Virus record (IMG/VR): IMGVR_UViG_3300020196_000062
Span: 1-49,653 of that record
Length of the DNA stretch: 49,653 nt
Source of the DNA: a virus
Reading direction: 5' to 3' (one strand)
In this document: one piece after another, positions 4,434 through 46,736 of the stretch
Numbering within the stretch: the stretch's first letter is position 1
How the letters are laid out: each line of letters begins with the position of its first letter
The notes under the pieces: model-generated
What the model saw: only the letters and a program-made list of their open reading frames with translations
Told to the model about the DNA's origin: nothing
Databases searched by the model: none
Position numbers and translations under genes: made by a program

Positions 4434-4461
4434 TTGACAGTTCCATTTTTCATGTTATCGT
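4434..4461 (+). promoter_or_regulatory. Class A promoter (TTGACA-N16-TATCGT)
   Basis: Consensus TTGACA with a 16-base spacer and TATCGT. The GTG start at 4469 lies 7 bases after the -10, so the transcript should begin at or within two bases of the start codon. Confidence 0.8.
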
Positions 4462-4468
4462 CCATAGC

Positions 4469-4789
4469 GTGAACAAACGAGAGCTTCTGAAAAAGCTTTT
4501 GCATATACCTCAAAAAAATCCAAAACATTTTTGGGGTATGCAATTTAGATTATTAAATAGTCTTCTGAAGAAATTTCCAGACCCTAAATTTTGGGATCAA
4601 CTTTCTGTTGACAAAGTTGATTGTTTGACGTTATATGCTGGTGAAGATGCGAATGGAATAGCGGATAAATATAAGAGATTTATTTTTCAACCTGAATTCA
4701 AAAACCCCGAAATTAAACTTGGCGACAAGCTAGGCGATGATTACAATATAAAGGTAAAACCGAGAACAATTAAAGATTTTTTAAAATGA
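4469..4789 (+). CDS. Hypothetical protein, first gene of the replication/recombination operon
   Basis: 106 residues from a GTG start placed by the promoter just upstream; no Shine-Dalgarno sequence could fit in the leader. It begins VNKRELLKKLLHIPQ and contains KHFWGMQFRLLNSLLKKF and LTLYAGEDANGIADKYKRF. I do not recognise a family. The stop overlaps the recombinase start as ATGA, so the two are translationally coupled and it may act in the same process. Confidence 0.7.
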   Translation: MNKRELLKKLLHIPQKNPKHFWGMQFRLLNSLLKKFPDPKFWDQLSVDKVDCLTLYAGEDANGIADKYKRFIFQPEFKNPEIKLGDKLGDDYNIKVKPRTIKDFLK

Positions 4790-5955
4790 GTAGAAAAATT
4801 AAAGAAGATACAGACACAAATAAAATTACAACTTCTCAAGAGCAACTAAAAAGCTTCTTGAAGAATAATAAAGATTCACATTACAATTTTGAGCCGAGTA
4901 TCGACTATAAAGTTTCAAGTAGCAGTTTATTGCTTGATTATTTTCTTACTGGTGGTTTAGGAACGGGACTTCATAGATTCTGTGGTATAAATGAAGGCGG
5001 CAAGACCAGCTGTGCCCTTCAGTTCATGAAGAATTTTTTAGATCAGTCAAAAAAGCGTAAGGGATTTTATATAAAAGCAGAGGGTCGTTTGAGTAAAGAA
5101 ATGATTGAACGATCTGGAGTTAAATTTGTATTTGATGAGGATCAATGGGTTGAAGGCACTTGTTTTGTTTTTGAATCAAACATTCATGAAACCGTATTTG
5201 ATGCAATGAGAGAACTTGTCGGTAAGAATGATGAAAAGATTCAATATTTCTTTTTATTAGATTCTGTAGATGGTCTTATCAGAAAGGGAGATCTTGACAA
5301 GACTTTTGAAGAATCTCAAAAAGTTGCTGGTGGCGCAGTAATTGCAGCAGATCTAATGAAACGCATTTCGATTGCGCTTCAGAAGCGCGGTCATATTGCA
5401 ATATTTATTTCTCAGGTTCGTGCCGACATTAAACTAGATCCATACAGCAAAGCTCCTATTCGCCAAACTACCGCAACCGGTGGTAATGCTTTGCTACATT
5501 TTGCAAATTGGATTTTCGAATTTGATTCTCGTTTCAAGGGTGATTTGATTCTTGAAGATCCTAACGCTTCTTATGACGAACAAAAGAATCCTTATCTTGG
5601 ACATTTTGTTAAGATTGTTGTAAAGAAGTCTCCAAACGAACGCACTAATTGTACTATTCGATATCCAATTAAATATGGACGAAAGAATGGTACTTCGAAT
5701 TGGGTGGAAAAGGAAATTTTTGATTTTCTAACTATGTGGGAAATTGCAATTAAGAAGGGAGCTTGGATTAGTTTTGACGAAGACTTTCTTAATACTTTAA
5801 AAGAAGCTGGATTCACAGAGTTTCCTGCTCAAATTCAAGGATCTGCTAAGTTTGAACAAATTGTTAATGACAATGAAAAGCTTAAGAACTTCTTCTATAA
5901 GTATATCAGTGAAAATTTACTAAATTTTGGCGATGGAATTTCTATCACTCAATAA
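4786..5955 (+). CDS. uvsX: RecA/UvsX-like recombinase
   Basis: 389 residues. Forms nucleoprotein filaments on ssDNA and catalyses strand exchange in recombination-dependent replication and repair. Walker A is GINEGGKTS (67-75); AEGRLSKEM (98-106) aligns with the catalytic Glu region of RecA; Walker B is FFLLDS ending at Asp 159; ISQVRADI (208-215) corresponds to the RecA/UvsX stretch before loop L2, followed by TTATGGNALLHFAN. The first about 40 residues are a charged extension. Its start overlaps the upstream gene by 4 bases and its end overlaps a nuclease gene by 23 bases. UvsX-type is preferred over cellular RecA because of length and phage context. Confidence 0.88.
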   Translation: MSRKIKEDTDTNKITTSQEQLKSFLKNNKDSHYNFEPSIDYKVSSSSLLLDYFLTGGLGTGLHRFCGINEGGKTSCALQFMKNFLDQSKKRKGFYIKAEGRLSKEMIERSGVKFVFDEDQWVEGTCFVFESNIHETVFDAMRELVGKNDEKIQYFFLLDSVDGLIRKGDLDKTFEESQKVAGGAVIAADLMKRISIALQKRGHIAIFISQVRADIKLDPYSKAPIRQTTATGGNALLHFANWIFEFDSRFKGDLILEDPNASYDEQKNPYLGHFVKIVVKKSPNERTNCTIRYPIKYGRKNGTSNWVEKEIFDFLTMWEIAIKKGAWISFDEDFLNTLKEAGFTEFPAQIQGSAKFEQIVNDNEKLKNFFYKYISENLLNFGDGISITQ

Positions 5956-6340
5956 TAAAAAAAAACGTTGTAAGAACGCTCGCGATTATATTATCAACTG
6001 GACAATCGATAGCCGTAGTAAATTTCAAACAGAGGTCAAAAAATTTTTACGAAACTATTGGCTTCATAATATTGTATTTGAAGAATTTCCTATTGTTGGG
6101 ACTCGTCTAAGTTTGGACTTTTATAATGCTAATAAAAAAATAGCCATAGAAGTCCAAGGCAGACAACATACTGGTTATGTTGAATTTTTTCATCAAAATA
6201 GAATGAATTTTCTACATCAGTTAAATAGAGATAAGAAAAAAGAACGATTTTGTGAACTTAATAAGATTAAACTTGTAACAATTTATGAAAATGATATAAT
6301 AAATAAACATCTTTTTGAAAGTCAAGGTGTAATATTATAA
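5933..6340 (+). CDS. PD-(D/E)XK-type (Vsr/DUF559-like) endonuclease
   Basis: 135 residues from the ATG at 5933 (a TTG at 5927 is also possible). The core reads VGTRLSLDFYNANKKIAIEVQGRQH, the Asp...Glu-x-Gln pattern of small single-domain endonucleases related to Vsr and DUF559, followed by KERFCELNKIKLVTIYEND. The basic N-terminus could bind DNA. It overlaps the recombinase gene by 23 bases, so a recombination or repair role (for example nicking or processing DNA ends) is plausible. It could instead be a solitary homing-type nuclease, but nothing interrupts the neighbouring genes. Confidence 0.65.
   Translation: MEFLSLNNKKKRCKNARDYIINWTIDSRSKFQTEVKKFLRNYWLHNIVFEEFPIVGTRLSLDFYNANKKIAIEVQGRQHTGYVEFFHQNRMNFLHQLNRDKKKERFCELNKIKLVTIYENDIINKHLFESQGVIL
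6327..6335 (+). promoter_or_regulatory. Class B promoter-like motif GTGTAATAT
   Basis: Exact GTGTAATAT, with TAATAT ending 6 bases before the ATG at 6342. The same 9-mer precedes three other start codons at 6-8 bases. Confidence 0.45.
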
Positions 6341-6341
6341 A

Positions 6342-6602
6342 ATGAAAAAAGATTCGCAATCAGAGAATTTTAAGCAATTTAAAATTCCTGAAAATTATTT
6401 TAATAAATTGTATGAGTTTACTGGATCTGATGAATCTTCCAAGGGTTTTATAGTCGCTTATGTTTCGCAAGATGGTTGTCCGACAATTTATACTAAGGTG
6501 GCGAATGCAATCGTAGAAATGGGATTGGTTAAAGCTTTAGAAAAATATTTAAATGAAGTGAATAACAGTCAAGATTCCATTGACATCAGCGAAGAAACCT
6601 GA
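6342..6602 (+). CDS. Hypothetical protein (86 aa)
   Basis: MKKDSQSENFKQFKIPENYF, then a predicted alpha/beta domain GFIVAYVSQDGCPTIYTKV and a helix VEMGLVKALEKYLNEV. No family recognised. It lies between the nuclease and helicase genes and has its own class B motif, so it may also be transcribed separately. Confidence 0.65.
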   Translation: MKKDSQSENFKQFKIPENYFNKLYEFTGSDESSKGFIVAYVSQDGCPTIYTKVANAIVEMGLVKALEKYLNEVNNSQDSIDISEET

Positions 6603-6617
6603 TACGGTGGTTTTGGC

Positions 6618-9186: not shown

Positions 9187-10226
9187 AGGAGACATTATCT
9201 GCCAGTAAAATTAAAACACTTAAATCCTGCTCATGGCAGTATTGGTGCAAATACATATTAAAGCTACCAGATAAAACTAATTCTGGAGCGTTGATTGGCG
9301 ATACTGTGCATATTGTTCTTGAGTGTCTTGGTGCGCCAAGGCACAAAAAACATTATACTAAAATACTTGCGAAAAAAAATATTTTTGCTTCTAAAGCTGT
9401 TAAAAGACTTGTCTATAAACACGCTAAACATAAAAATCTTAATGAAAAAAATCAAATAAATGATATTTGCGTCATGACATTAAATGGTTTGATGTATGAC
9501 TTTTTTGGCAAGCAATACGGCGAACCATCTCAAATAATTTCAGAAAAAGATTTCGAGCTTACCGTAGAACAAGAAGATATTCAATACAAAGTCAAAGGGT
9601 TTATAGATAAATTATATATCTATAAAAACATCAGCCTAGTTCTTATTCGTGACTTCAAAACTAATAAAAAGAAGTATGAAGGTAAAGAAATTTCTGACAA
9701 TTTGCAAGATTATATTTACACTCTTGCGATTAGAAAACTTTATCCAGAACTCAAGAACATCAAAATGGAATTCTTGTTTTTAAAGCAAGATTTAAATGAT
9801 AATGCTGTAATGCCCATGCAAACAAAAACCAAGTATGAATTAATTGGTTTTGAACATGAACTAACAGGCTACCAAAAATACGCTGATTCATTTAATGAAA
9901 AAACTGCTACATCAAACATGGCGGCGAATCAAGGCATACCTAAAGACGGCAGTTTTGCCGGAAAACTCTTGTGCGGATTCGCTAAGGAGCGTGATCAATT
10001 AAAGAAAGACGGAACTCCAATGTGGTATTGCACATATAAATTTGGATTTGACTATTTTGCCATAGTAGATAAAGATGAAAAGATCAAAAAATCAGCATTT
10101 ACAAAAAAAGAATTGGCGGGAATTAAATTATTTGATGGAGAAAAAATAATAAAAAAGAAATATTATGGTTGTCCCTGTTTTAAATCTGCTGAAATCATCG
10201 ATCCTTTTGATCTTGACAAGTTCTAA
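9183..10226 (+). CDS. RecB/Cas4-like PD-(D/E)XK nuclease
   Basis: 347 residues. The opening LSASKIKTLKSCSWQYWCKY and GALIGDTVHIVLE are typical of the RecB/AddB/Cas4 nuclease family; the active site is KGFIDKLY (Asp 142) and IRDFKTNKK (Asp 157, Lys 159), then NLQDYIY. Cysteines near the N-terminus (16, 22) and C-terminus (GCPCFK, 330 and 332) could hold an iron-sulfur cluster as in Cas4/AddB, but this is not certain. It starts with TTG overlapping the primase stop as TTGA; no ATG is available. Probable DNA-end processing in recombination. Confidence 0.8.
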   Translation: MKETLSASKIKTLKSCSWQYWCKYILKLPDKTNSGALIGDTVHIVLECLGAPRHKKHYTKILAKKNIFASKAVKRLVYKHAKHKNLNEKNQINDICVMTLNGLMYDFFGKQYGEPSQIISEKDFELTVEQEDIQYKVKGFIDKLYIYKNISLVLIRDFKTNKKKYEGKEISDNLQDYIYTLAIRKLYPELKNIKMEFLFLKQDLNDNAVMPMQTKTKYELIGFEHELTGYQKYADSFNEKTATSNMAANQGIPKDGSFAGKLLCGFAKERDQLKKDGTPMWYCTYKFGFDYFAIVDKDEKIKKSAFTKKELAGIKLFDGEKIIKKKYYGCPCFKSAEIIDPFDLDKF

Positions 10227-10240
10227 TTTCGTGTTAGGAT
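10213..10240 (+). promoter_or_regulatory. Class A promoter (TTGACA-N16-TAGGAT)
   Basis: TTGACA overlaps the end of the nuclease gene; the -10 TAGGAT ends 9 bases before the ATG at 10250, giving a near-leaderless message for the polymerase operon. Confidence 0.8.
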
Positions 10241-11624: not shown

Positions 11625-14173
11625 ATTTTTTAGAAGATATCAAACCTTACGATAACGCCATGCTTCCCGGCGTTCGATTACCTCAAATTTCTATTGAAGG
11701 TAAATATTACGATCAGTTGCAAATACCCATTTCATCTGACAACTTTACATTTCTAAAGACACTTTGCTATAGAAGTTTAAACAATCTACAATTAAACAAT
11801 AATCAGTACATTGAGCGTTTGGAGATGGAGCTAGACATCTTCAAAGAACTTGACTTCGTTGATTATGTACTACTCAACTGGGACATTCTTAAATTCTGTC
11901 ATGAAAACAATATTCCTACTGGTGCTGGTCGTGGTAGTGCCGCAGGTTCTTTGGTCTTGTATCTTGTAGGTGTTACGAAAGTAGACCCAATCAAATACGG
12001 TTTATTTTTTGAACGATTTGTGAGTCGTTCTCGCGCTAAGAAAATAATTAAAGATGACATTACTTATCTTGATGGATCGCTGTTACCCGATGTAGATAAT
12101 GATATTAGTTATGATCGTCGTGCAGAAGTTATTTCATATATTGAAAAAAAACATCTTGGTAAGACATCTAAAATTCTTACTTTAAATACTCTATCAAGTA
12201 AACTTTGTATCAAAGAATGCGGCAAAATCGTTAGCTCATATTCAGAAACAGAAGTTAACGAAGTCAGTGATAATATTCCAAAACTATTTGGCCGTGTATT
12301 TGAGCTAGAAGAAGCTTACAAAGAAAATGAAAAGTTTAAACAATGGGTAGATCAAAATAAAAATCTCTTTGAGATCGCTAAAAAGATTGAAGGTTTAAAT
12401 AAAAATACAGGTGTTCACCCATCAGGCATTGCTATTTCTTACTATAAGATTGAAGAAGTTTGTCCTGTTCAAAAAACTTCTGATGGCGATTTAGTTAGTG
12501 GCTACGACATGAATTATGTAGCTGAACTTATGGTTAAATTCGATGTTCTTGGTCTTCGTACTTTAACTGTCGTAAACGAGGTATGTAAAAGACTAAATAT
12601 TGAAATGACTTCTATTGATCCTGAAGATCCTTTTATTTATGAGAGTCTCCAAAATCTTCGTACCCCTCAAGGTTTATTTCAGATTGAAGCAGAAACTAAC
12701 TTTAAAGTCTGTCGCAAGGTCAGGCCAAAGTCTTTGGAACAACTCAGTGCAGTCGTTGCTATTGCTCGTCCCGGTGCTTTGGACTTTGCCGATCAATATG
12801 CCACCTATTCTGCGTCAGGCGTATTTCAATTAGTACATGACTTCTTTAAAGAAGAGCTTTCATATACTGGAGGCATTCCTTTGTATCAAGAACAGTTGAT
12901 GAAGATGGCAGTTCGTGTTGGATTTACTTTAGATGAGTCAGAACAGTTGCGCCGAATCGTAGGTAAGAAAAAAGTGGATCAGATGCCAGCGTGGCAAGGT
13001 AAAATTCGTCAGAAAGTATCTGAGCAGAATTTAGATCCTGCAATTGGTGATGTGTTGTGGAAAGTTGCCGAAGATTCAGCTAATTACTCATTTAATAAAT
13101 CTCATTCAATCTCGTATGCAATTCTTGCTGCTTGGACTATTTATCTTAAATTTAAGTACCCTCATGAGTTTTTTCTAGCTTTGCTAAGATTATCTAAGCA
13201 TGAGCCAGATTCTCATCATGAAATTAGTAAAATATCAAAAGAGCTTTTGCACTTTAATATCATTCTTTTACCGCCGGATTTAGCTAAGTCTGCATTAGAT
13301 TTTAAGATTGAAGAGAATAATATTCGATTCGGTCTTAACTCTATCAAAGGTGTATCTGAAAAAACTTTACAGTCTCTACAGAATTTTCGCGAAACTAACA
13401 CTCCAACTAAGTTCGACATATTTATTGCTGCAAAGCAAGCTGGTATTAATATTGGTTTATTATCATCTCTTATTCAAGCTGGAACTTTAAGTTCATATAC
13501 GCATAGACGTTCACGATTAGTTCTTGAAGCTCAAACATTCAATCTACTGTCCGATAAAGAAAAGAAATTTGCATATTCTGTAGCATTAAAATATAATTAT
13601 GATATTCTAAACATTGTTAGTGAATGTGCTTTTAAGGGAGTTTGTCTTAATGAAAACGGCAAGCCATTCATGACCGAAAAGAGAAAGAGTACTTTTAAGA
13701 AAAAATATGACGAGTATAAGAAGATATACGAACAAAACAAAAACCATGAAAAATTTGCCAACTGGGTTTTTGAAAACAAGCTTCTTGGCTATACGCCATC
13801 AATAAGATTAAAAACTATTTTTAAACAGTCAGAATATAGTTTTACTGATACTTTAGAATTTCATTCTGTTTATAAAGAAGATCGTATTAAAATGGTTGGG
13901 GTTATTGATGAGGTTTATAAAGGTAAGACTAAGAAGTCTAATTCGACATTCTATCGTTTTCAGTTAAAAGACGAAGTTGGCAGTGTAAGTGCAATGTTTT
14001 TAGATGGTGGAAAACATCAAAAATTAACAGAATATCTTGAAGATGGTCTTAAGATACCAGAAAAAGAAAATATTGTGGTTTTCACTGGCAGAAAAGGTGA
14101 AGATGTGTTATGGATTGAGGGTATTGGTATCTTAGATGATAAGATATATATGAAACTATCTGACGTAGAATGA
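11621..14173 (+). CDS. dnaE: DNA polymerase III alpha subunit, polymerase part (lacks PHP)
   Basis: 850 residues. C-family DNA polymerase. It starts directly at the palm: ERLEMELDIF, then TGAGRGSAAGSLVLY (100-114), the catalytic LLPDVDNDISYDRR (Asp 157 and 159) and the third Asp in KFDVLGLRTLT (308). Then the fingers with GVHPSGIAIS, YQEQLMKMA, and EDSANYSFNKSHSISYA. The C-terminus has an OB-fold (about 745-800: MVGVIDEVYKGKTKKSNSTF). DnaE is usually about 1,160 residues; the missing first 270 are the PHP gene at 10250. Overlaps the exonuclease and Clp genes by 4 bases each. Confidence 0.92.
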   Translation: MNFLEDIKPYDNAMLPGVRLPQISIEGKYYDQLQIPISSDNFTFLKTLCYRSLNNLQLNNNQYIERLEMELDIFKELDFVDYVLLNWDILKFCHENNIPTGAGRGSAAGSLVLYLVGVTKVDPIKYGLFFERFVSRSRAKKIIKDDITYLDGSLLPDVDNDISYDRRAEVISYIEKKHLGKTSKILTLNTLSSKLCIKECGKIVSSYSETEVNEVSDNIPKLFGRVFELEEAYKENEKFKQWVDQNKNLFEIAKKIEGLNKNTGVHPSGIAISYYKIEEVCPVQKTSDGDLVSGYDMNYVAELMVKFDVLGLRTLTVVNEVCKRLNIEMTSIDPEDPFIYESLQNLRTPQGLFQIEAETNFKVCRKVRPKSLEQLSAVVAIARPGALDFADQYATYSASGVFQLVHDFFKEELSYTGGIPLYQEQLMKMAVRVGFTLDESEQLRRIVGKKKVDQMPAWQGKIRQKVSEQNLDPAIGDVLWKVAEDSANYSFNKSHSISYAILAAWTIYLKFKYPHEFFLALLRLSKHEPDSHHEISKISKELLHFNIILLPPDLAKSALDFKIEENNIRFGLNSIKGVSEKTLQSLQNFRETNTPTKFDIFIAAKQAGINIGLLSSLIQAGTLSSYTHRRSRLVLEAQTFNLLSDKEKKFAYSVALKYNYDILNIVSECAFKGVCLNENGKPFMTEKRKSTFKKKYDEYKKIYEQNKNHEKFANWVFENKLLGYTPSIRLKTIFKQSEYSFTDTLEFHSVYKEDRIKMVGVIDEVYKGKTKKSNSTFYRFQLKDEVGSVSAMFLDGGKHQKLTEYLEDGLKIPEKENIVVFTGRKGEDVLWIEGIGILDDKIYMKLSDVE

Positions 14174-16578
14174 AAAATTTAAATCTTACACCAAGAGCGC
14201 AAAAACTAATAAAAGAGGCATATAAAATTGCCCTTGATCTCAAACAGAATGAAATAACTCATTTGCATTTATTGATAAGTTTTTTTAATTTAAAACAAAG
14301 TCAAATCGAAGAAGCTTTCAGCAATTTTGGTTTTGATGTTGTTAAAATTAAATCTACGGCCACATCTTTTATTAAGTCCAAAATATCTTCCCAGAAAAAG
14401 GGAACGATCAAGCCTTTACTTAATGATGATCTTAAGAATATATTTAAATGCGCTAAAACTATATCTTCTAAATTTGATCACAAGTATATTGGATTAGAAC
14501 ATATTTTTATCAGTTTATTTGAAATCCAGAATGAGATGTTTTCATTATTTTTAATGAGTAATGATTATAATTTTGCTAAAGTTGTAGATTATGTTGAAAA
14601 AAAGTTAGAAGAAGATGATATGCTTCCAATTGGATCTGATGAAGATATTTGCGAAACAAAACCAGCTAAAGAAACTTTCAATATCAAAAAATATAAAGTA
14701 TTAAATATCTATGCTACTAATCTTAATTTACAAGTTTCAAATGGTAAAATCAATAATTTGCATATCAACAAAGAACTTATTCAAAAGATCTCCGAAGTTC
14801 TTTGCCGTAAAAATAAAAATAATCCGCTTATTGTTGGCGAAGCCGGTGTTGGCAAAACAGCATTAGTAGAATCTCTTGCTCAGGCTATAGTTAATAATAA
14901 AGCGTCAGATTTACTGAGCTTAAAGCAAATATATAATTTAGATATTCCGATGATGATTGCTGGCTGCAAGTATCGTGGCGAATTTGAAGAAAAAATTAAA
15001 AATCTTCTTAAAGAAATAACTGATGATCCTTATATTGTTCTATTTATTGATGAGATTCATACTATAATTGGTGCTGGCAATCCCGAAAATGGTAACGATG
15101 TTGCTAATATTCTTAAGCCTTATTTAGCCAGAGGCGAAATTAGCTGCATTGGCGCAACAACTTTCAATGAGTATAGAAAAACAATTGCAGGTGATCCAGC
15201 ATTATCAAGGCGTTTTCAAATAATAAAGATTGAAGAACCAAATAAGGAACAGACATTTAATCTTATTAAAAATATCAAAAATAGCTATGAGAGTTTTCAC
15301 ATTATTGATTTCTCCGATGATGTTCTTAAATTTATTATCGAATCTGCAGAAAAATATATTGAAGGTAGATTTCCAGATAAAGCTTTAGACATAATCGATC
15401 AAGTAGGAGCAAAATTAAAAATAAAGACTTTTGCCAAGTCTTTTGAAATGATTAAGATTGAGAAAAAAATAAGTAGGTTGATTCAAACAAATCAAAATAA
15501 CATACAATCTAAAAAAACAGTTTGTTTACAAGAGCTTCTTTCTGAATATGAGAATTCAACTCGAAAAATGATTGATAATTGGCGAAATAATAAGTATAAA
15601 GTATCAAACAACGACATCTTAGAAGTTATTTCAGATAAAACGAACATACCTATTGAAGATTTAAAAATGCAAGACTTCGATAAAGTAAAATTATTGAAAC
15701 AAAAATTACAAACTGAGATGTTCGGTCAAGACACTCAAATAGATCATATTTATAAAACTCTTATCCGAGCTAAAGCTGGTTTTAGAAATTTTAATAAACC
15801 TATATGTTCTATGCTATACGTCGGTCCTACAGGTGTTGGCAAAACAATGACTGCTAAATTTATAGCTGAAACATTGTTCCCTAATAAAAATAACTTTATT
15901 AATATAGACATGTCAGAATATACTGACAAGACAGCTGTTAATAAACTATTCGGATCTAATCCGGGTTATATCGGTTTTGATAAAGGTGGTGTTTTAACAG
16001 AGCGGGTTCGTAAAAATCCATATTCATTAATACTATTTGATGAAATTCAAAAAGCTGATCAAGATGTTTTGTATTCTTTGTTGCAAATTTTAGAAGAAGG
16101 CAAAGTCACAGATTCATCTGGCAAGATCGTGGATTTTTCAAACACGATTATAGTTATGACTACAAATGTTGGTGCAGATATTATCAATCATTCTTCTATT
16201 GGATTTGGCAAGCAGAAAGCGAGCAAGCAAGACGTTCTTGGTTCAATTAAGAAATTCTTTCCTGCTGATTTATTAAACAGAATAGATGAAGTAGTAATTT
16301 TTAATCAGCTTGATGAAGAAAACTTGAAACAGATAATAAATAAAGAGCTTAAAATATTTGAAAATGATTTGTCTAGTCGAGGTATTGCTCTCAAATACTC
16401 CAAAGAAATAATTGATCTTATTTTTAATAAGCTTCAGTTCGACAATTTTGGAGCCAGACAAGTTATTAAAACTATTCAGCGAGAACTTCAAACTCAAGTG
16501 GCTGAAAAAATGCTAGATTCAAATAAAAAGTTAGAATTGGAAATTTCTGTAAAAGATGGCAATATTTGTGTAATATAG
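14170..16578 (+). CDS. ClpA/ClpC-like AAA+ protein unfoldase
   Basis: 802 residues. An N-terminal double Clp domain (1-145), then two AAA+ modules. D1: Walker A GEAGVGKT (223-230), pore loop GCKYRGEF (265-272), Walker B LFIDEIH, arginine finger LSRRF. A short middle segment (about 420-480) resembles ClpC rather than the long ClpB coiled coil. D2: Walker A VGPTGVGKT (551-559), pore loop GYIGFD, Walker B ILFDE. SSIGFGKQ (675-682) holds an IGF tripeptide where ClpA and ClpX carry the loop that docks on ClpP, so this phage protein may recruit host ClpP. Overlaps the polymerase gene by 4 bases. Confidence 0.9.
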   Translation: MKNLNLTPRAQKLIKEAYKIALDLKQNEITHLHLLISFFNLKQSQIEEAFSNFGFDVVKIKSTATSFIKSKISSQKKGTIKPLLNDDLKNIFKCAKTISSKFDHKYIGLEHIFISLFEIQNEMFSLFLMSNDYNFAKVVDYVEKKLEEDDMLPIGSDEDICETKPAKETFNIKKYKVLNIYATNLNLQVSNGKINNLHINKELIQKISEVLCRKNKNNPLIVGEAGVGKTALVESLAQAIVNNKASDLLSLKQIYNLDIPMMIAGCKYRGEFEEKIKNLLKEITDDPYIVLFIDEIHTIIGAGNPENGNDVANILKPYLARGEISCIGATTFNEYRKTIAGDPALSRRFQIIKIEEPNKEQTFNLIKNIKNSYESFHIIDFSDDVLKFIIESAEKYIEGRFPDKALDIIDQVGAKLKIKTFAKSFEMIKIEKKISRLIQTNQNNIQSKKTVCLQELLSEYENSTRKMIDNWRNNKYKVSNNDILEVISDKTNIPIEDLKMQDFDKVKLLKQKLQTEMFGQDTQIDHIYKTLIRAKAGFRNFNKPICSMLYVGPTGVGKTMTAKFIAETLFPNKNNFINIDMSEYTDKTAVNKLFGSNPGYIGFDKGGVLTERVRKNPYSLILFDEIQKADQDVLYSLLQILEEGKVTDSSGKIVDFSNTIIVMTTNVGADIINHSSIGFGKQKASKQDVLGSIKKFFPADLLNRIDEVVIFNQLDEENLKQIINKELKIFENDLSSRGIALKYSKEIIDLIFNKLQFDNFGARQVIKTIQRELQTQVAEKMLDSNKKLELEISVKDGNICVI
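16568..16576 (+). promoter_or_regulatory. Class B promoter-like motif GTGTAATAT
   Basis: Exact GTGTAATAT inside the last codons of the Clp gene, with TAATAT ending 6 bases before the ATG at 16583. Confidence 0.45.
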
Positions 16579-16787: not shown

Positions 16788-17936
16788 ATGAATCAACACA
16801 ATCCACTTTATAACGTGAATACAAATTCTTCAGCTTCAAACGATACGTTTGATTTCGCAATGCCAGATATTCCTGAGCCTCCTCAGTCTGAAAAGGTAGA
16901 ACCAAAAGATAGAGATGCAGTTGGTTTTAAATTTGGTTTTATTGGTGCTGGTCAAGGTGGAGGAAAATTGGCAGAAACTTTTTCTCAAATTGGATATGCT
17001 AGAGTTGGCGTAATAAATACAGCAGATCAAGATCTTGCGACAATTAATGTTCCAAATAAAATGAAGTTTGGAGAACAGCAAGGTGCAGGTAAGAATAGAG
17101 ATTTTGCCAAGCAAGCATTCTTAAATTGTAAAGAAGATGTTGTAGATTTTATTAAGACTTCTATTGGTACTGATATTGATCGTATTTTTGTTACTGTTGG
17201 TGCTGGTGGTGGAACTGGCGCAGGTGTTTGTTCTGAATTAATAAAAACTATTAAAGAATACCAGTCAACAGTAAAAGCTACTTCACCATATGTTGGTCTT
17301 ATTGTTGCTTTGCCCAAATTATCAGAAGGAAAGAAAGTAAGTCAAAATGCTTATGAGACTTTAGAAGAGGCTTGTGAATTAGTCAAACAAAAGATTGTCT
17401 CTCCACTTATTATTCTCGACAATGAAAGAATTAATAGTTTATATCCTAAACTATCAATTAATAAGTTTTGGCAAGTAGCTAATGCTAATATTTGTTCTCT
17501 GTTTCATCTATTTAATAATATTATAACAAAAAATAGCCAATATACAACATTCGATACAAATGATTTTAGAACTGTCCTAGATTCTGGAATTATGGTTTTT
17601 GGCGCAGCTAATATTACTAATTATAGCAATGAAGCCGAGATTAGTAAAGCAGTCCGTGAAAATCTTAAAAGAAATGTGCTTTGCGGTGAACTTGATCTTT
17701 CTACTGGTAGCACAGCTGCTGCTGTCGCTATCGGTGACGAAAAGACGTTAGACAGCATTCCCCAAGAATATTTAGATAATGCTTTTAATCAACTCAACAG
17801 AACTTTAAAAACTAATAGTACTGTTCATCAAGGTGTTTACAAAGGCGCGAAAGAAGGATTGTCTATATTTACAGCCATTGGAGGAATAACAACTCCAATT
17901 GGCAAGTTGGAGGCTCTTCTAAAAGCAAGCCAATAA
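16788..17936 (+). CDS. FtsZ/tubulin-like GTPase
   Basis: 382 residues. After a disordered, Asn/Pro-rich extension (1-45) comes GFIGAGQGGGKLAETF (T1), INTADQDLATI (T3) and the tubulin/FtsZ signature GAGGGTGAG (138-146, T4). The segment DTNDFRTVLDSG (256-267) resembles the FtsZ T7 synergy loop but is two residues shorter than the NxDFxDV form, so GTPase activity needs testing. It lacks the FtsZ C-terminal tail that binds FtsA/ZipA. Phage relatives known from jumbo phages (PhuZ, TubZ) build filaments that place the phage nucleus or carry capsids. This one is closer in motifs to FtsZ; a role in phage cytoskeleton or in blocking host division are both possible. Confidence 0.88.
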   Translation: MNQHNPLYNVNTNSSASNDTFDFAMPDIPEPPQSEKVEPKDRDAVGFKFGFIGAGQGGGKLAETFSQIGYARVGVINTADQDLATINVPNKMKFGEQQGAGKNRDFAKQAFLNCKEDVVDFIKTSIGTDIDRIFVTVGAGGGTGAGVCSELIKTIKEYQSTVKATSPYVGLIVALPKLSEGKKVSQNAYETLEEACELVKQKIVSPLIILDNERINSLYPKLSINKFWQVANANICSLFHLFNNIITKNSQYTTFDTNDFRTVLDSGIMVFGAANITNYSNEAEISKAVRENLKRNVLCGELDLSTGSTAAAVAIGDEKTLDSIPQEYLDNAFNQLNRTLKTNSTVHQGVYKGAKEGLSIFTAIGGITTPIGKLEALLKASQ

Positions 17937-17945
17937 GTGTAATAT
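17937..17945 (+). promoter_or_regulatory. Class B promoter-like motif GTGTAATAT
   Basis: Exact GTGTAATAT directly after the FtsZ-like stop; TAATAT ends 8 bases before the ATG at 17954. Confidence 0.5.
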
Positions 17946-20696: not shown

Positions 20697-21879
20697 AAAA
20701 ATGGCCTTGGACTGCGGAGTCAAAATATCAAAACCATATTTAGATAAATATTTTTTGCCTCTTAAAAATGATAATTTTATAATTTTTGACACAAGAAGTA
20801 AAAATCCATATGGTGAATATGATTACTTTAATGATGTAATTGACCTAATTAAACCATATTTAAATAAATCAAAAATCGAAATATTTCAATTAGCTACCGA
20901 AAAAAACGCTAAATTAAATTGTAATAAATTATTTATTTCTTTAAATAAAAAACAAGAAAACTATTTAATTTCTAAAGCTAAGATTCTAATAGCCAATCAA
21001 AATTATACTTTGCATGTAGCATCTGTTTTCAATATAAAGTCAATAGGTTTATATTCTTTGTATGATTCAAAGAATACAAGACCAGTATGGAATAAATCTT
21101 CTCAAATAATTTTAGAATCTGACAGAGATGGCAATTTACCATCTTACGGTCAATTGAAAGAAAGTCCAAAAACGATAAATTTTATCAGCCCATATAAAGT
21201 TGCAAAGAATATTTTAGACAATTTAAACATAGAAAATAATCTTGGAAAATATGAACTAGTACATTTAGGTAAAAGTTACAATCAAAAAATTATTGAAATT
21301 GTACCAGACTTTATATCTTCTGAAGATTTCATGAAACATAGATCTATAAATTTGCGATTAGATTACATTAAAAACTTGAATGCTTCGGTTTTTCACTATT
21401 GGGTGTCAAATAGAAAAGTAAACATTATTACTGACAAAGATATTAATGTTTCTTTACTGACTCCATATAAAAATAACATCTTATTATTAACAATTATGAT
21501 GTCACCGAATATCTCTGAAAATTTTTTGAAGCTGTGTAAAAATTCAGGTATACAAATAAAAATTTTTTGCGATGATAAAGAAAAATTAAATGAATACAGA
21601 TTTAAATTTTTAGATTGGGAAATTAATAAAGATTTTGACGATAATAAAAAAATAGAAACTATTAACAATTTTTCTGAATCTTCTAAATTTATAAGTTCTA
21701 AAATTTTAATTTCTAAAGGTAAACAATTTTCTTGCAAGGCTAATTATCTCGCAAACAAACATCTTGACAAGACCGAAGAAAATGTCATACTATGCAAAGA
21801 ATTCGAACAAGAAATAGAATTTTTTAAAATCTACAATGAACGACAAGAACAATTTACATCTAGCACCTCAGTCGCGTAA
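20683..21879 (+). CDS. Protein carrying the C-terminal half of a GT9-like glycosyltransferase domain
   Basis: 398 residues. Its start ATG lies 14 bases inside the upstream gene in the +1 frame. Residues 1-190 continue the GT9-like fold begun there: MALDCGVKISKPYLDKYF, then KAKILIANQNYTLHVASVF, in the place of the donor-binding SG-x-x-HLA segment. The remaining 200 residues are unfamiliar and rich in Asn, Lys and Ile. Either the two proteins assemble, or the enzyme was split by a frameshift; the ATG-to-TGA overlap favours real re-initiation. A promoter for the next gene lies in its 3' end. Confidence 0.7.
   Translation: MNLTEKMALDCGVKISKPYLDKYFLPLKNDNFIIFDTRSKNPYGEYDYFNDVIDLIKPYLNKSKIEIFQLATEKNAKLNCNKLFISLNKKQENYLISKAKILIANQNYTLHVASVFNIKSIGLYSLYDSKNTRPVWNKSSQIILESDRDGNLPSYGQLKESPKTINFISPYKVAKNILDNLNIENNLGKYELVHLGKSYNQKIIEIVPDFISSEDFMKHRSINLRLDYIKNLNASVFHYWVSNRKVNIITDKDINVSLLTPYKNNILLLTIMMSPNISENFLKLCKNSGIQIKIFCDDKEKLNEYRFKFLDWEINKDFDDNKKIETINNFSESSKFISSKILISKGKQFSCKANYLANKHLDKTEENVILCKEFEQEIEFFKIYNERQEQFTSSTSVA
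21764..21791 (+). promoter_or_regulatory. Class A promoter (TTGACA-N16-CATACT)
   Basis: TTGACA, 16-base spacer, CATACT (same -10 as the rIIA promoter). It lies inside the upstream gene and leaves about 38 bases of leader before the ATG at 21836. Confidence 0.65.
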
Positions 21880-28965: not shown

Positions 28966-28993
28966 TTGACAGCCACCGAAAACATGGTAAGTT
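28966..28993 (+). promoter_or_regulatory. Class A promoter (TTGACA-N16-TAAGTT)
   Basis: TTGACA, 16-base spacer, TAAGTT. Unlike most sites of this class it has a long leader of about 95 bases before the gene at 29094. The leader holds a small hairpin (CGCAA-AGAA-TTGCG, 29001-29014) and a 19-codon reading frame. Confidence 0.75.
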
Positions 28994-29028
28994 CTTCTCG
29001 CGCAAAGAATTGCGAATTTTAAATAAAA

Positions 29029-29088
29029 ATGAGTGCTACTATTAATTATAATATTAGTTTCGTTAGTTTTAGTTATAAACCACAATAA
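29029..29088 (+). CDS. Possible 19-residue upstream leader peptide
   Basis: An ATG-to-TAA frame, MSATINYNISFVSFSYKPQ, lies in the leader of the next gene and ends 5 bases before its ATG. It has no known relatives and could be chance in AT-rich sequence, or a leader peptide that controls the downstream gene. Confidence 0.3.
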   Translation: MSATINYNISFVSFSYKPQ

Positions 29089-29093
29089 AAAAT

Positions 29094-29486: not shown

Positions 29487-30431
29487 ATGAAATACGGACT
29501 AGTTTGCATTTCTGAATTACTGCGAGAGAAAAATCCTGATTTGGCTTTCAAAATCATGACTCGCGCTCAATTTCATAAAAAAAATCGAGATGAATCTATC
29601 GCAGAGCTTTCTCGACGTATTTCTCATAACCTTACGGTTACGATTGAAACGCTCAAACATTGTAAGGAAGTAGGTATCAAGCATTATCGGCTTTCCTGCA
29701 AACTATTTCCTTTAATAACTGATCCGACCCTTAACCTTCAAGCAGAACTTTTGCCACATTGGAACATTATTGAACAGAAATTAATGGAAGTAGGTCGTGT
29801 TGCGCGAGAACTCAATATTTCTATTTCTATTCATCCTGATCAATTTGTTGTTCTTGGTTCAGATTCAGATGATGTTTGTGTCAAATCTATTACTGAACTT
29901 AATTTTCATGCATGGGTTTTGAATCAGATGAAGATGCCGCAGACTTATGAATGCCCCATGAACATTCATCCTAGTCTTTCTACATTTGAATCAGCGGAAA
30001 AGTTTGTAGATAAATTTATTCGTAACTTCTTTCGATGCGATATTGGAGTTCGTAACAGACTAGTCTTGGAGAACGAAGACAAAGGTTTTTGGACTTGCAG
30101 TAATTTGTATGACTACTTTCATAATTACATGAAGCAGGTTTATAATTTTCATTTTCCTCTTACTTATGATAATTTGCACGATACCGCAAATCCATCTGTA
30201 CTAGCTGATGGTACTGTTGTGCCTTTTGAGAAGAATTTTATGCGTTTTTATCAGACATGGAATGTTTCTCCTGTATTTCATTGGTCTGAAGCTGAAGATG
30301 GTACGAAACGCAATCATTCCAAAAATCTTACTGTGCCGCCACCTGATATGGGCCTTGATGTTACTTGGGAGATTGAAGTTAAAGGCAAAGATAAAGCTTT
30401 TGTTCATTACATCAAACGTTTTCCTAATTGA
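29487..30431 (+). CDS. uvsE: UV-damage endonuclease (UvsE/UVDE family)
   Basis: 314 residues. A TIM-barrel enzyme that nicks 5' of UV photoproducts. Family landmarks are clear: KYGLVCISELL at the start, NLTVTIETLKHC, HYRLSCKLFPL, ISISIHPDQFVVLGS, MNIHPS, RLVLENEDKGFW (metal-binding Glu), FPLTYDNLHD and VFHWSEAEDGT. Length matches the family (about 300). It should repair UV damage in phage DNA without host nucleotide excision, useful to a phage of sunlit water. Expressed from a near-leaderless message. Confidence 0.95.
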   Translation: MKYGLVCISELLREKNPDLAFKIMTRAQFHKKNRDESIAELSRRISHNLTVTIETLKHCKEVGIKHYRLSCKLFPLITDPTLNLQAELLPHWNIIEQKLMEVGRVARELNISISIHPDQFVVLGSDSDDVCVKSITELNFHAWVLNQMKMPQTYECPMNIHPSLSTFESAEKFVDKFIRNFFRCDIGVRNRLVLENEDKGFWTCSNLYDYFHNYMKQVYNFHFPLTYDNLHDTANPSVLADGTVVPFEKNFMRFYQTWNVSPVFHWSEAEDGTKRNHSKNLTVPPPDMGLDVTWEIEVKGKDKAFVHYIKRFPN

Positions 30432-30455
30432 AAACATAACTTTATATATTATAAT
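30428..30455 (+). promoter_or_regulatory. Class A promoter (TTGAAA-N16-TATAAT)
   Basis: TTGAAA overlaps the UvsE stop; 16-base spacer; perfect TATAAT; the ATG at 30462 follows 6 bases later. Confidence 0.78.
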
Positions 30456-31016: not shown

Positions 31017-31301
31017 ATGACGCATAAATTTGCAGTTATAATTGAAAAATATTTTTATTATAAAATACAAAACAACAATAATTTTTATTTACGGATACTT
31101 GTTTTAGATGTTATCAGAGCATTAGTCGATGAAAAACAATCAGCAAATAAATATCACAATGAATTATTTTATAAATGTTCTCAAAACATTGCTAGTAAAA
31201 TCAAAATATTTGAAAACAAAAACAGTATCATTTTTTACCTTGAATTAAACGATGGCTTCTTCGAAAATTTTTTCGAAGAACCCCTTGACAACCCAGAATA
31301 A
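31017..31301 (+). CDS. Hypothetical protein (94 aa)
   Basis: MTHKFAVIIEKYFYYKIQNN, then LRILVLDVIRALVDEKQSAN and IASKIKIFENKNSIIFYLEL. No family recognised. Its 3' end encodes GFFENFFEEP through an inverted repeat and also carries the -35 of the rIIA promoter, so coding and control overlap. Confidence 0.55.
   Translation: MTHKFAVIIEKYFYYKIQNNNNFYLRILVLDVIRALVDEKQSANKYHNELFYKCSQNIASKIKIFENKNSIIFYLELNDGFFENFFEEPLDNPE
31257..31280 (+). repeat. Inverted repeat just upstream of the rIIA promoter
   Basis: TTCTTCGAA, 6 bases, TTCGAAGAA: a perfect 9-bp palindromic pair ending 4 bases before the -35 box. Possible operator or hairpin. Confidence 0.7.
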
Positions 31302-31312
31302 CCTGCCATACT
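31285..31312 (+). promoter_or_regulatory. Class A promoter (TTGACA-N16-CATACT)
   Basis: CCCCTTGACAACCC, 16-base spacer, CATACT; the ATG at 31321 is 8 bases after the -10. The -35 context is almost the same as at 46436-46449. Confidence 0.8.
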
Positions 31313-31320: not shown

Positions 31321-33522
31321 ATGAAGATCCTTGTTGCCGATAAAGTCGTTGCGACCTCGCACGATTTTCCCTCCGTAAATTGTTCGATTGATGCTGAAGA
31401 CATGAGGTACATTTCCTCTCTTCTTCGCAACAATTATTCAAACACAATTCTTGCGACGATTCGCGAGACTTACGCAAACGCCGTAGACGCAAACAGCGAA
31501 AACGGTTTTAGTCCCGAATCGATTGAAATCAAGTGTCCTACTAGTTTTGATCAGACTTTTTCTGTTCGTGATTTTGGTGCGGGTTTGAGTCGCGATCAAA
31601 TTTTTAATCTGTATAGCAAGTTTGGCAAATCTACAAAGCGCGGATCTGATCTTTCAATCGGCGGCTTTGGAATTGGACGCTTTGCTCCTCTTTCTTACAA
31701 AGATAGTTTTACTGTTACTTCTTATCATAACGGAGTAAAGACTATTTATTCTATTTATATCTCAGAAGAAAATGATACGAAGATCGATGAGATATTCAGC
31801 GATCCTACTTCTGAAAAGAATGGTATTTGTATTACTGTTGGAGTTTCTAAGAATGACATCACTAAATTCAATAGTGAAATCTCGACTTTCTTTAGTAATT
31901 TTGAAGTATTGCCGAAGTTTCTAAACGTTCAGACTGAGATTGATAAGCCAAAGATTCTTATCTCTGGCAATGGTTGGCAGATTCGCATAACTTCTACTAT
32001 TTATAATCCTTATGTAAATAGTGGACAAGGTATTATAATAGGAGGCATTTATTATCCCATCAATGCAGAACTCCTTGATTTCAAAAGCGAAGACAATTAT
32101 TATGCTTGGACTAAACATATCACTAAATTAGTTTTTTTTGCTGATATTGGTAGCGTTTCATTGCATCATTCCCGCGAAGCTCTTGAATACAACAAGACTA
32201 CAAAGTCTTATCTAAAGTCTCGTTATAAAACTTTTTGCGAAGAGTTTACTAATTCAATCAAGAGTAATGTCGAGCAATTTGATTGTTTGCGCGATGCTAT
32301 GAATTATTTCAAAGAAATTAAGAATATATTTCCTAGTAATATTTTTGATAAACTTGAATCAAGAGGTGTTTTTACGTTTAAGGGATATAAGATTACTGCT
32401 AGCAATTTTAATCGCGCCACTTACGAAGTAGACAATAAACAGTATCGAATTCCTGTTAGTTCTAAAACTTACACTTTAATTAATAATGATCGTGTAAGTA
32501 TTAGTAGAGGTTATACAATTAGTAATGAGAAAAATTCTTATATTGTTTTTAACGATCTTGCTGAAAATACAAAGGTTGTTCCTCGTTTATTTAATCTGGC
32601 TAAAAAATATACCAATGTCATTGTTATCAGTCATGATTCATCTATCGTTGGTTCTGATGTTGTCAATGGAATTGATAAGTTTAAGGAAATTCATCGATTT
32701 GATCTTGTCAAGTCTGGTTTTTGCAATCTTAGTGAATTGACTCCAGTAAAGCTTCCTTCTAACAGAAAGCCTTCTGCTAGTGGCTCATATACTCCTAATT
32801 ATTTTTATAAGATTCAAGGTTCCGCTTTTCACTCTTCAACTTCTTTTACTCAAGAAATCAACGACGCTGCTATTACGAAGCTTTATTTTCCCATCTCTGA
32901 TGGAAAGCCTATTAATCAGTATTCACAATTTTATCGTGAAAAGAATAAACTTAATAGTCGTTTTTTTAGTGAATTAGACGCATTGTTTGAGGTGCCTATT
33001 TATGGAGTGTCAAATAATGTAGTTGCGACTACTAAATTTAAAAATCGCGCCGACTTCGTTGATGTTGTCAAGTATGTCCAAGATAAATGGAATAATTGCA
33101 CTGATGAAGTTAAGTCGTTGATTCTTGAATATATTTCTTGCAATACTGATGACGAATATAATATTATGACTTTTACTGCCACGGTTGCAGATATTATTAC
33201 TTGTCAGAAATATCATTACAAACTGAAATGTTGTTCAGAACTTCTTAAGAAATTAAATATGTTTGAATTCGCTATTTTTATTAAAAAATGGCGACATGTA
33301 TTGGAGAATCTTAAAATTAATATGTCCCACGACAATGAAACTCCAGTTTCTATTTGTGCAAAATATTTAAATCAAGTCACTGAAGAAATTTATAAAAATT
33401 ATCCCATGCTTGAAGTTCACCGCGATCTTTGGCATTCTGATCGCGACAAAAATGAAGCAAAATTTAAGGAGTACATTTCTTTCATCAATCAGCAGAATTC
33501 TGTTGACGTTTCGAAAATTTGA
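31321..33522 (+). CDS. rIIA: rIIA-like GHKL ATPase
   Basis: 733 residues. The N-terminal ATPase of the gyrase/Hsp90/MutL (GHKL) type shows all boxes: IRETYANAVDAN with Glu 49 and Asn 53; VRDFGAGLS with Asp 84; GGFGIGRFAP (114-123). The rest is long and less conserved, as in T4 rIIA. The next gene is rIIB-like, giving the standard rIIA-rIIB pair. In T4 the pair allows growth on hosts with the lambda Rex exclusion system and is tied to the membrane; the mechanism is still unclear. Near-leaderless start. A promoter for rIIB lies in its last codons. Confidence 0.85.
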   Translation: MKILVADKVVATSHDFPSVNCSIDAEDMRYISSLLRNNYSNTILATIRETYANAVDANSENGFSPESIEIKCPTSFDQTFSVRDFGAGLSRDQIFNLYSKFGKSTKRGSDLSIGGFGIGRFAPLSYKDSFTVTSYHNGVKTIYSIYISEENDTKIDEIFSDPTSEKNGICITVGVSKNDITKFNSEISTFFSNFEVLPKFLNVQTEIDKPKILISGNGWQIRITSTIYNPYVNSGQGIIIGGIYYPINAELLDFKSEDNYYAWTKHITKLVFFADIGSVSLHHSREALEYNKTTKSYLKSRYKTFCEEFTNSIKSNVEQFDCLRDAMNYFKEIKNIFPSNIFDKLESRGVFTFKGYKITASNFNRATYEVDNKQYRIPVSSKTYTLINNDRVSISRGYTISNEKNSYIVFNDLAENTKVVPRLFNLAKKYTNVIVISHDSSIVGSDVVNGIDKFKEIHRFDLVKSGFCNLSELTPVKLPSNRKPSASGSYTPNYFYKIQGSAFHSSTSFTQEINDAAITKLYFPISDGKPINQYSQFYREKNKLNSRFFSELDALFEVPIYGVSNNVVATTKFKNRADFVDVVKYVQDKWNNCTDEVKSLILEYISCNTDDEYNIMTFTATVADIITCQKYHYKLKCCSELLKKLNMFEFAIFIKKWRHVLENLKINMSHDNETPVSICAKYLNQVTEEIYKNYPMLEVHRDLWHSDRDKNEAKFKEYISFINQQNSVDVSKI

Positions 33523-33530
33523 GTTAGCAT
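33503..33530 (+). promoter_or_regulatory. Class A promoter (TTGACG-N16-TAGCAT)
   Basis: TTGACG, 16-base spacer, TAGCAT, overlapping the end of rIIA. About 23 bases of leader lie between the likely +1 and the ATG at 33560. Confidence 0.7.
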
Positions 33531-33559
33531 AAACAAACAATTACGGTGTAAAAAATATT

Positions 33560-34927: not shown

Positions 34928-34928
34928 A

Positions 34929-43323: not shown

Positions 43324-43351
43324 TTGACTTATACCACCTAGAACTTAGTAT
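43324..43351 (+). promoter_or_regulatory. Class A promoter (TTGACT-N16-TAGTAT)
   Basis: TTGACT, 16-base spacer, TAGTAT; the ATG at 43359 is 7 bases after the -10. Confidence 0.78.
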
Positions 43352-45390: not shown

Positions 45391-46035
45391 TCAGCAAGAA
45401 TTGCACTCGCATTCTGTGGGTGATGGCAATATTAGTGAAGCTGAATTACTGAATACATTACCTGTAGAATTGTAGATATAAACATCGTAGGAACCAGCAT
45501 CGTTATTTTGTATACCAGATATATTATAAATATAATTAGTTGCATTAGGAATATTTACTGAATCTTTTCTCCATTGATAATTTAAAGGTTGACCATTTGC
45601 TGTCACTACAAATGAAGCATTTCCTCCAAGATATCCAGAAACATTCTGAGGTTGTGTTGATATGCTAGGAGCAATAACAGGGAATACATCAGGTGTCCAA
45701 GGCAAAGGAGGTTGTACAACAGGTGGAACTAGTTGATTATAAATTTGTTGCATTGCTCCACTTTCATATTGATTTTTCTGATCTTGACCGATTTGATTCC
45801 AGACCCAACTTAGCACTTCAGGTTCAGTTAAATTTTGATATGGAATGAATTCACCTGTTGTGGCAGGTATTGCAGTTGAAGAATAAGTTCTGCCATAAAA
45901 AGGTCCACCGCTGCCACCAGAATAATAAGCTAAACAGTCCCAGTGAACTGTAAATACATAATCTGTTTCGCCACTAAATTGTGGATAACATTCCATCACT
46001 CCGACACGCCATAAATTTTGAAAATCATTGCTCAT
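45391..46035 (-). CDS. Virion-type protein: DUF7936-like N-terminus fused to an Ig-like domain
   Basis: 214 residues. N-terminal part (1-112): WRVGVMECYPQFSGETDYVF, TVHWDCLAYYSGG, IPYQNLTEPEVLSWVW, then PPLPW, a phage-specific domain (DUF7936-like, from memory). C-terminal part (120-205) is one Ig-like domain: APSISTQPQNVSGYLGGNAS, NYQWRKDSVNIPNATN and NDAGSYDVYIYN. This Ig wording is typical of Verrucomicrobiota surface proteins. It ends CECNSC. Ig-like domains on virions usually help adhesion to cells or mucus. No signal peptide, as expected for a structural protein. Confidence 0.78.
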   Translation of the reverse strand: MSNDFQNLWRVGVMECYPQFSGETDYVFTVHWDCLAYYSGGSGGPFYGRTYSSTAIPATTGEFIPYQNLTEPEVLSWVWNQIGQDQKNQYESGAMQQIYNQLVPPVVQPPLPWTPDVFPVIAPSISTQPQNVSGYLGGNASFVVTANGQPLNYQWRKDSVNIPNATNYIYNISGIQNNDAGSYDVYIYNSTGNVFSNSASLILPSPTECECNSC

Positions 46036-46285: not shown

Positions 46286-46288
46286 ATA

Positions 46289-46297
46289 GTGTAATAT
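46289..46297 (+). promoter_or_regulatory. Class B promoter-like motif GTGTAATAT
   Basis: Exact GTGTAATAT four bases after the stop of the small zinc-finger gene. No real gene starts just after it; the only ATG (46314) opens a five-codon frame. It may drive the structured RNA at 46303. Confidence 0.42.
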
Positions 46298-46302
46298 ATA
46301 TT

Positions 46303-46395
46303 AGCGCAAATATATGCTGGATAAAATTTGATAAATTATCAAAATCCAGTTAAGCCCGAAGCGCATGAAACCGTGTTTCAAATCGGGCTTTTTTT
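46303..46395 (+). ncRNA. Candidate small structured RNA ending in a terminator
   Basis: About 93 bases with no gene, bounded by a class B motif and a T run. Hairpin 1 (46317-46349): CTGGAT/ATCCAG outside, TTTGATAA/TTATCAAA inside. Hairpin 2 (46352-46390): AAGCCCGA/TCGGGCTT outside, TGAAAC-CGT-GTTTCA inside, then T's. Alternatively this is only a 3' untranslated region of the zinc-finger gene. Confidence 0.45.
46352..46395 (+). terminator. Rho-independent terminator with nested stem
   Basis: AAGCCCGA (46352-46359) pairs with TCGGGCTT (46383-46390) and is followed by T's. An inner TGAAAC/GTTTCA stem fills the loop. Confidence 0.82.
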
Positions 46396-46439
46396 CGTCC
46401 CATACCCCCAACTTTCTCAAAAAATCTTGCATCGACCCC

Positions 46440-46467
46440 TTGACAACCCTCAGAAACCTGCTAAATT
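46440..46467 (+). promoter_or_regulatory. Class A promoter (TTGACA-N16-TAAATT)
   Basis: CCCCTTGACAACCC, 16-base spacer, TAAATT; the ATG at 46476 is 8 bases after the -10. The -35 context nearly equals that of the rIIA promoter. Confidence 0.8.
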
Positions 46468-46475
46468 CATCGCGT

Positions 46476-46736
46476 ATGGATAACCCATCACAAAAGACTG
46501 GCCGTGGTCGTCCGAAGGGATCGACCAGTACCATTGAAATCACGTTGGCTGACTTGCTTGCCAAGCTCAACAACGATCCAAACGCAATCGTGCAAGTTGG
46601 TCGCACTTGGTACGCGAAGTACAAGAGCGTTCCTGCGACCTCTTCGCAAGATGGTGATGCGCTGCCTCCCGAAATTCAGGAGCAGCTTCAAGATACGAAG
46701 GAAGAGGATTCGAAAGTCGAGTTCGTAATTTCCTGA
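46476..46736 (+). CDS. AT-hook small DNA-binding protein (86 aa)
   Basis: Start fixed by the promoter at the ATG at 46476. MDNPSQKTGRGRPKGSTSTI holds a GRGRPKGS AT-hook-like motif that binds the minor groove of AT-rich DNA. Then a helix (ITLADLLAKLNNDPNAIVQV), VGRTWYAKYKSV and an acidic tail. Composition is more GC-rich than neighbours. It precedes a RuvB-like ATPase by 5 bases, so it may bring that motor to DNA or regulate the operon. Confidence 0.7.
   Translation: MDNPSQKTGRGRPKGSTSTIEITLADLLAKLNNDPNAIVQVGRTWYAKYKSVPATSSQDGDALPPEIQEQLQDTKEEDSKVEFVIS

Follow-up and report, generated by a model that had tools for sequence, protein, structure and literature searches.

Promoter organization and predicted leaderless start sites

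Does a phage whose promoters lie directly in front of its start codons use leaderless translation as an organised mode of expression? This question is raised by a 49.65-kb linear phage record (IMG/VR record IMGVR_UViG_3300020196_000062; the window, meaning the whole of this stretch), which has a coding density of 96% and a GC content of 33%, carries nearly all of its genes on the + strand, and contains a family of promoters that we term class A. Class A was defined by a TTGACA-like -35 element, a spacer of 16-17 bases and a TAnnnT -10 element, with a site considered leaderless if the start codon lies 6-9 bases past the -10 (this distance is the gap). Our analysis suggests that the window very probably carries a host-matched leaderless programme, in which sigma-70-kind class A promoters, together with a second promoter class (class B), are placed for transcription to start at or near the start codon.

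All 14 hexamer pairs separated by 16 bases that an earlier note had listed for this DNA were found, and nine of them end 6-9 bases before a start codon (gaps of 7, 9, 9, 6, 7, 6, 8, 7, and 8 for the sites at 4434, 10213, 26035, 26830, 29452, 30428, 31285, 43324, and 46440, respectively). The proposal that all 14 are promoters was upheld for these nine leaderless sites, for three sites that look like promoters with a leader and recur as hexamer pairs in near relatives (1963, 28966, and 33503) and for one site that precedes tRNA genes (47765). The remaining site (21764..21791, + strand) was rejected as a promoter, as it lies within an open reading frame (ORF) where the conservation of TTGACA reflects the coding sequence and does not extend to the -10. 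The proposed exact 16-base spacer and fixed distance to the start codon had to be relaxed: the promoter at 6580, which the earlier note overlooked, has a spacer of 17, this length is as common as 16 in related phages, and start codons lie anywhere from 6 to 9 bases past the -10.

The exact pattern TTGACA-N16-TAnnnT was detected 7 times on the + strand and 0 times on the - strand of the window, compared with 0-3 occurrences on the + strand for other spacers from 8 to 25. With one mismatch allowed, the pattern was found 46 times vs 30 expected by chance; as this is just 1.5 times chance, the case for these promoters is made by their position. A composite test was used that required TTGACA with at most one change, TAnnnT, and an ATG or GTG at a gap of 6-9. 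With a spacer of 16, this test identified 8 sites on the + strand and 0 on the - strand of the window, while dinucleotide shuffles gave a mean of 0.78 and a maximum of 4 (n = 200). The ninth leaderless site, at 31285, falls outside this count because its -10 is CATACT. The class A sites of the window are as follows, where handles beginning with G or L denote relatives.

1963..1990, + strand: class A-type with leader; TTGAAA-16-TAACAT before a 34-amino-acid ORF at 2010, leader about 12 nucleotides; region kept in L014 and L018
4434..4461, + strand: leaderless; TTGACA-16-TATCGT-7-GTG(4469), gene of unknown function with a RecA-like gene next downstream; kept in L016, L019, L021, and G014
6580..6608, + strand: leaderless; TTGACA-17-TACGGT-9-ATG(6618), DnaB-like helicase; conserved in 12+ relatives with identities as low as 55%
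10213..10240, + strand: leaderless; TTGACA-16-TAGGAT-9-ATG(10250), PHP / exonuclease / DnaE polymerase operon; -35 overlaps the end of the upstream gene; kept in 17+ relatives, to about 41% identity
26035..26062, + strand: leaderless class A/B hybrid; TTGACT-16-TAAAAT-9-ATG(26072), GTG precedes the -10; both TTGAC and GTGTAA conserved in G003 and L093
26830..26857, + strand: leaderless; TTGACA-16-TAAAAT-6-ATG(26864), HNH endonuclease
28966..28993, + strand: class A with leader of roughly 30-100 nucleotides; kept in G003 and L093
29452..29479, + strand: leaderless; TTGACA-16-TAAACT-7-ATG(29487), UvdE/UvsE UV endonuclease
30428..30455, + strand: leaderless, class A-like; TTGAAA-16-TATAAT-6-ATG(30462), small ORF; weaker -35, conservation limited to close relatives
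31285..31312, + strand: leaderless; TTGACA-16-CATACT-8-ATG(31321), RIIA; -10 is TAGAGT/TAAAGT in relatives
33503..33530, + strand: class A with leader of about 22 nucleotides; TTGACG-16-TAGCAT before RIIB; -10 conserved beyond the RIIA coding region
43324..43351, + strand: leaderless; TTGACT-16-TAGTAT-7-ATG(43359), 78-amino-acid ORF; kept in G003
46440..46467, + strand: leaderless; TTGACA-16-TAAATT-8-ATG(46476), 86-amino-acid ORF that precedes a clamp-loader/RuvB-like ATPase gene
47765..47792, + strand: class A for tRNAs, not mRNA; precedes a tRNA-Lys (47813) cluster

The operons previously assigned to these promoters (RIIA, UvsE/UvdE, HNH, and PHP-exonuclease-DnaE) were correct. Two further features were observed near the sites: (i) a conserved short ORF of 19-23 amino acids, at about 29017-29092 (+ strand) between the promoter at 28966 and the gene at 29094, which is shared by the window, G003, and L093; and (ii) a GTTCTTTAAA box past the -10 that is common to the tRNA-cluster promoters of the window (47740-47815) and G003.

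Conservation of spacing and position in related phages

To place the window among its relatives, about 90 viral loci retrieved by DnaE and RIIA proteins (100% to 37% identity) were used. Spacers of 16 and 17 were enriched in these loci, with 86 and 93 distinct sites on the coding strand vs 6 and 14 on the opposite strand. At 41/86 (spacer 16) and 53/93 (spacer 17) of these sites, an ORF had its first ATG 6-9 bases past the -10. When tested with spacers of 15-18 and a gap of 5-9, the composite pattern was present in 28 of 29 relative records, at up to 17 per record, and its mirror controls gave 0-1 per record and strand. In the window and 12 fetched records (with the near-identical G002 left out), the starts of called genes accumulated at a gap of 6-9 with spacers of 16 and 17 and with no other spacer. 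This restriction of the enrichment to 16 and 17 is in keeping with sigma-70-type promoters, whose -35 and -10 elements lie about 17 bases apart (16-18). Spacer use differed between subclades, as 16 was favoured in that of the window (7/8 strict sites in the window and in G003) and 17 in G005, G014, G016, G024, and G027 (22/24 in G014).

A de novo search of k-mers by position, to which no motif was supplied, returned TTGACA (-35 to -38) and GTGTAA (-12 to -16) as the only strong positioned promoter motifs. Orthologue footprinting was performed on DnaB, PHP, UvdE, HNH, RIIA, and the genes at 4469, 26072, 43359, and 46476, with the N-termini aligned in most relatives. TTGACA, TAnnnT, and the gap were found to be conserved, while the spacer varies in its letters and shifts between lengths of 16 and 17. 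The leaderless arrangement upstream of orthologues persists to about 40-50% protein identity. The median distance to the upstream gene was 40 bases for class A, 22 for class B, and -0.5 for the rest; the 40 bases are the length of a promoter. Class A was assigned to about 10% of genes and class B to about 10%, compared with 0-1.5% in the mirror control. Overall, the genome-wide search with distance-to-start statistics, which the earlier note had put forward as a check, found the 16-base spacing enriched and start codons at a gap of 6-9, and its idea of leaderless translation as an organised expression mode gains strong support from this comparative evidence. The larger part of the story is outside that note and comprises a genome nearly devoid of ribosome-binding sequences, a second promoter class, and a probable Verrucomicrobiota host.

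Absence of Shine-Dalgarno sequences

Shine-Dalgarno (SD) 4-mers were detected before 6% of the window genes vs 5% in a control interval, and were similarly low in 12 relatives; the same method applied to a Clostridium genome as a control gave 49-51% vs 4-5%. The window genes lack SD sequences, as leaderless mRNAs do; since SD sequences are missing genome-wide, the genes that carry promoters are not special in this respect. A rare, strong SD-like stretch, AAGGGAGGG, was noted upstream of one gene at 43622 (+ strand) in this otherwise SD-less genome.

A second promoter class and its gene partition

Class B promoters have the form GTGTAAnnn-N5-9-ATG, are without a -35 element, and are likewise placed for leaderless mRNA. 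GTGTAAnnn was positioned at class B gaps before 128 gene starts vs 36 other ATGs, and was conserved in relatives. The following leaderless class B sites were identified in the window.

2182..2190, + strand: GTGTAATTT-5-ATG(2196)
6327..6335, + strand: GTGTAATAT-6-ATG(6342)
16568..16576, + strand: GTGTAATAT-6-ATG(16583), small gene before an FtsZ/TubZ-like gene
17937..17945, + strand: GTGTAATAT-8-ATG(17954)
33546..33554, + strand: GTGTAAAAA-5-ATG(33560), RIIB
48365..48373, + strand: GTGTAATAT-8-ATG(48382), IscU/NifU_N

The two classes were found to partition by gene type, with features of both on RIIB and the gene at 26072. First genes behind class A encode helicase, UvdE, polymerase, and RIIA/B; those behind class B encode tail, tape measure, terminase, and virion proteins, protease, Hoc, PhoH, and the small subunit of ribonucleotide reductase (RNR). 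Class B resembles late promoters in being -35-less and located before late or structural genes, though PhoH and RNR are included. Sigma70_r2 matches were detected in 16/24 relatives, and two conserved sigma-like families were traceable, one of which occurs in G005, itself closely related to the window. Judging from these sequences, a phage-encoded sigma-like protein probably reads class B. Sigma70_r4 was scarcely detected in the candidates. The notion that they are without region 4, like T4 gp55, was dropped, with a C-terminal helix-turn-helix-like stretch seen by eye.

Probable host

The window carries an IscU/NifU_N iron-sulfur scaffold gene (48382-48777, + strand), which among the fetched relatives is shared only with the near-identical G002. 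The nearest matches to this IscU are chromosomal isc genes from Verrucomicrobiota, at 73-77% identity (next matches 66% or less), and it grouped with this phylum in a tree with support of 100/94 from a short alignment, suggesting that the host is probably a member of this phylum. The host call was also checked for mislabelled matches; the 'Betaproteobacteria' match L102 appears among the listed relatives of the Methylacidiphilales genome. Candidate host samples G033 and G050 were SD-poor and displayed a TAnnnT peak at a gap of 6-9 (3.5 vs about 0.75 per position), and in 24 relatives of G033 the class A composite pattern was clearly more frequent than in the mirror control. In Akkermansia muciniphila, 10% of transcription start sites are leaderless vs 0.4% in Escherichia coli (PMC4782308), and a list of SD-scarce bacteria includes Akkermansia and another Verrucomicrobia bacterium (PMC10783764).

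Gene content of the window

Genes of the window include those for a RecA-like protein, a DnaB-like helicase, a Toprim primase, a PD-(D/E)XK nuclease, and a PHP-RNaseT-DnaE polymerase. Further genes encode a ClpB-like protease, a TubZ/FtsZ-like protein, UvdE, HNH, RIIA/RIIB, ThyX, and a clamp-loader-like ATPase, along with several tRNAs. Three of the genes were noted individually.

14170-16578, + strand: phage-encoded ClpB/ClpC-like AAA+ protein (phrog_4871, E-value 5.5e-207)
16788-17936, + strand: FtsZ/TubZ-like gene (Tubulin, E-value 7.3e-12), comparable to phages that use a tubulin to position DNA
45391-46035, - strand: gene with DUF7936 and an Ig-like domain, among the few on this strand, with + strand genes on both sides

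A near-mode search of window bases 1-25000 against phage records matched no close isolate. Matches to phage records were remote and fell on DnaE, ClpB, and RIIA, with the best DnaE matches less than 30% identical.

Proposed mechanism and alternative explanations

We propose that, in this clade of large phages that encode DnaE, class A would be read by RNA polymerase with the primary sigma factor of the host, and that transcripts would begin right at the start codon or about 0-3 bases away from it, such that early and replication operons would be leaderless mRNAs translated without an SD sequence. Class B, probably via a phage-encoded sigma, would make the structural and nucleotide-metabolism operons leaderless as well, and this mode would match a probable Verrucomicrobiota host with leaderless transcripts of its own. 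A wider proposal is that the clade gave up SD initiation, and tied translation to promoter position, with host-sigma early promoters and -35-less, phage-sigma GTGTAA late promoters both yielding leaderless operons, such that translation in every temporal class would begin at the 5′ terminus of the transcript; we put this slightly short of probable.

Several observations weigh against this account. Transcription start sites are predicted from promoter geometry (the gap of 6-9 past the -10), the host call is based on a single transferred gene and a tree of few columns, and in a third host sample (G052) the TAnnnT peak is only weak and SD sequences are slightly in excess. No sigma-like gene was found within the window, which is itself a fragment. 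Moreover, (i) operon-internal genes are SD-less too, yet not leaderless, so a further mode of initiation must exist; and (ii) strict class A and class B assignments label 233/767 spaced or first genes (about 30%) and many operon heads have no recognised promoter, so the two classes are not the whole transcription programme.

Three other explanations were weighed against the same data. The promoters may be real with transcription starting at a more upstream point, or at the -10 followed by processing, giving short leaders and an SD-independent, A-rich initiation, the gap being a result of genome compaction. Such leaders could be a by-product in an SD-less and densely packed phage, and leaders are present at 28966, 1963, and 33503. 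However, compaction by itself predicts no such peak, whereas the gap peaks are sharp (class A peaks at 6-9 and class B at 5-6, with depletion at 3-4 and above 10), and the sum of spacer and gap is centred on 23 in several records, as though the start codon were fixed at +1; we therefore regard this explanation as unlikely. That leaderless expression is instead a takeover device biasing the ribosomes, for example through the IF2/IF3 balance as reported for phiYS40, and is not host-driven has this phage as its precedent (PMC3594737). It appears improbable, as a search of 24 records of the clade for translation factors that could bias ribosomes toward leaderless mRNA found no IF3 (C-domain) or ribosomal S21 gene, and the candidate host genomes are already SD-scarce with leaderless promoter geometry. 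Finally, the motifs could be operators bound by a regulator or chance matches in AT-rich DNA. One-mismatch matches are common in the window at its GC content, and the site at 21764 is itself a chance or coding match. Nevertheless, exact matches are strand-biased and specific to spacings of 16-17, the sigma-70 optimum, mirror and shuffle controls are near zero, and footprinting finds the hexamers conserved and the spacer not, which largely refutes this explanation and leaves it very improbable.

Comparison with known systems

Descriptions of leaderless initiation usually concern individual genes or a small number of bacterial phyla. A clade of abundant environmental phages that relies on promoter position in place of a ribosome-binding site, for early as well as late genes, would be a natural system for studying how leaderless mRNAs compete for ribosomes. 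Positional promoter motifs could also correct start-codon calls in metagenomic phages, and the style of initiation (SD-less, with leaderless geometry) may help to predict the host phylum. Late promoters of T4 consist of TATAAATA without a -35, are read through the phage sigma-like gp55, and yield mRNAs that have leaders and SD sequences. Class B is similar in being -35-less and in having a candidate sigma-like phage factor, but differs in its GTGTAAnnn sequence and in that the sigma-like proteins match other sigma PHROGs. The cI mRNA of phage lambda arises from a classic sigma-70 promoter that starts at the AUG of one gene, whereas about 20% of genes are concerned here. Lambda is named as the first leaderless case (PMC3160421). 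The giant phage AR9, with leaders of 26-491 nucleotides, provides a contrast (PMC5312081).

In Deinococcus-Thermus, ORFs with an adjacent -10 and leaderless mRNA are common and an added -35 raises expression (PMC12340547; PMC3160421); that pattern is host-wide and centred on the -10, whereas class A nearly always has a consensus -35 at 16-17 bases. The lytic Thermus thermophilus phage phiYS40, the most extensive phage case known, produces most of its middle and late mRNAs leaderless (PMC3594737), and its host phylum commonly uses leaderless genes. The likeness to phiYS40 is one of mode; the present phages form an apparently unrelated environmental clade in which early and replication operons also appear to be leaderless via full -35/-10 promoters and SD sequences are absent genome-wide; leaderlessness was established experimentally for phiYS40, while for this clade it is deduced by comparison. 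Akkermansia and SD-scarce Verrucomicrobia have leaderless transcription start sites and few SD sequences, as here, and belong to the likely host phylum; those data are bacterial and no phage was studied. Single leaderless phages are known, and what looks new from these sequences is that SD-less phages of probable Verrucomicrobiota share, across a whole clade, an arrangement of two promoter classes.

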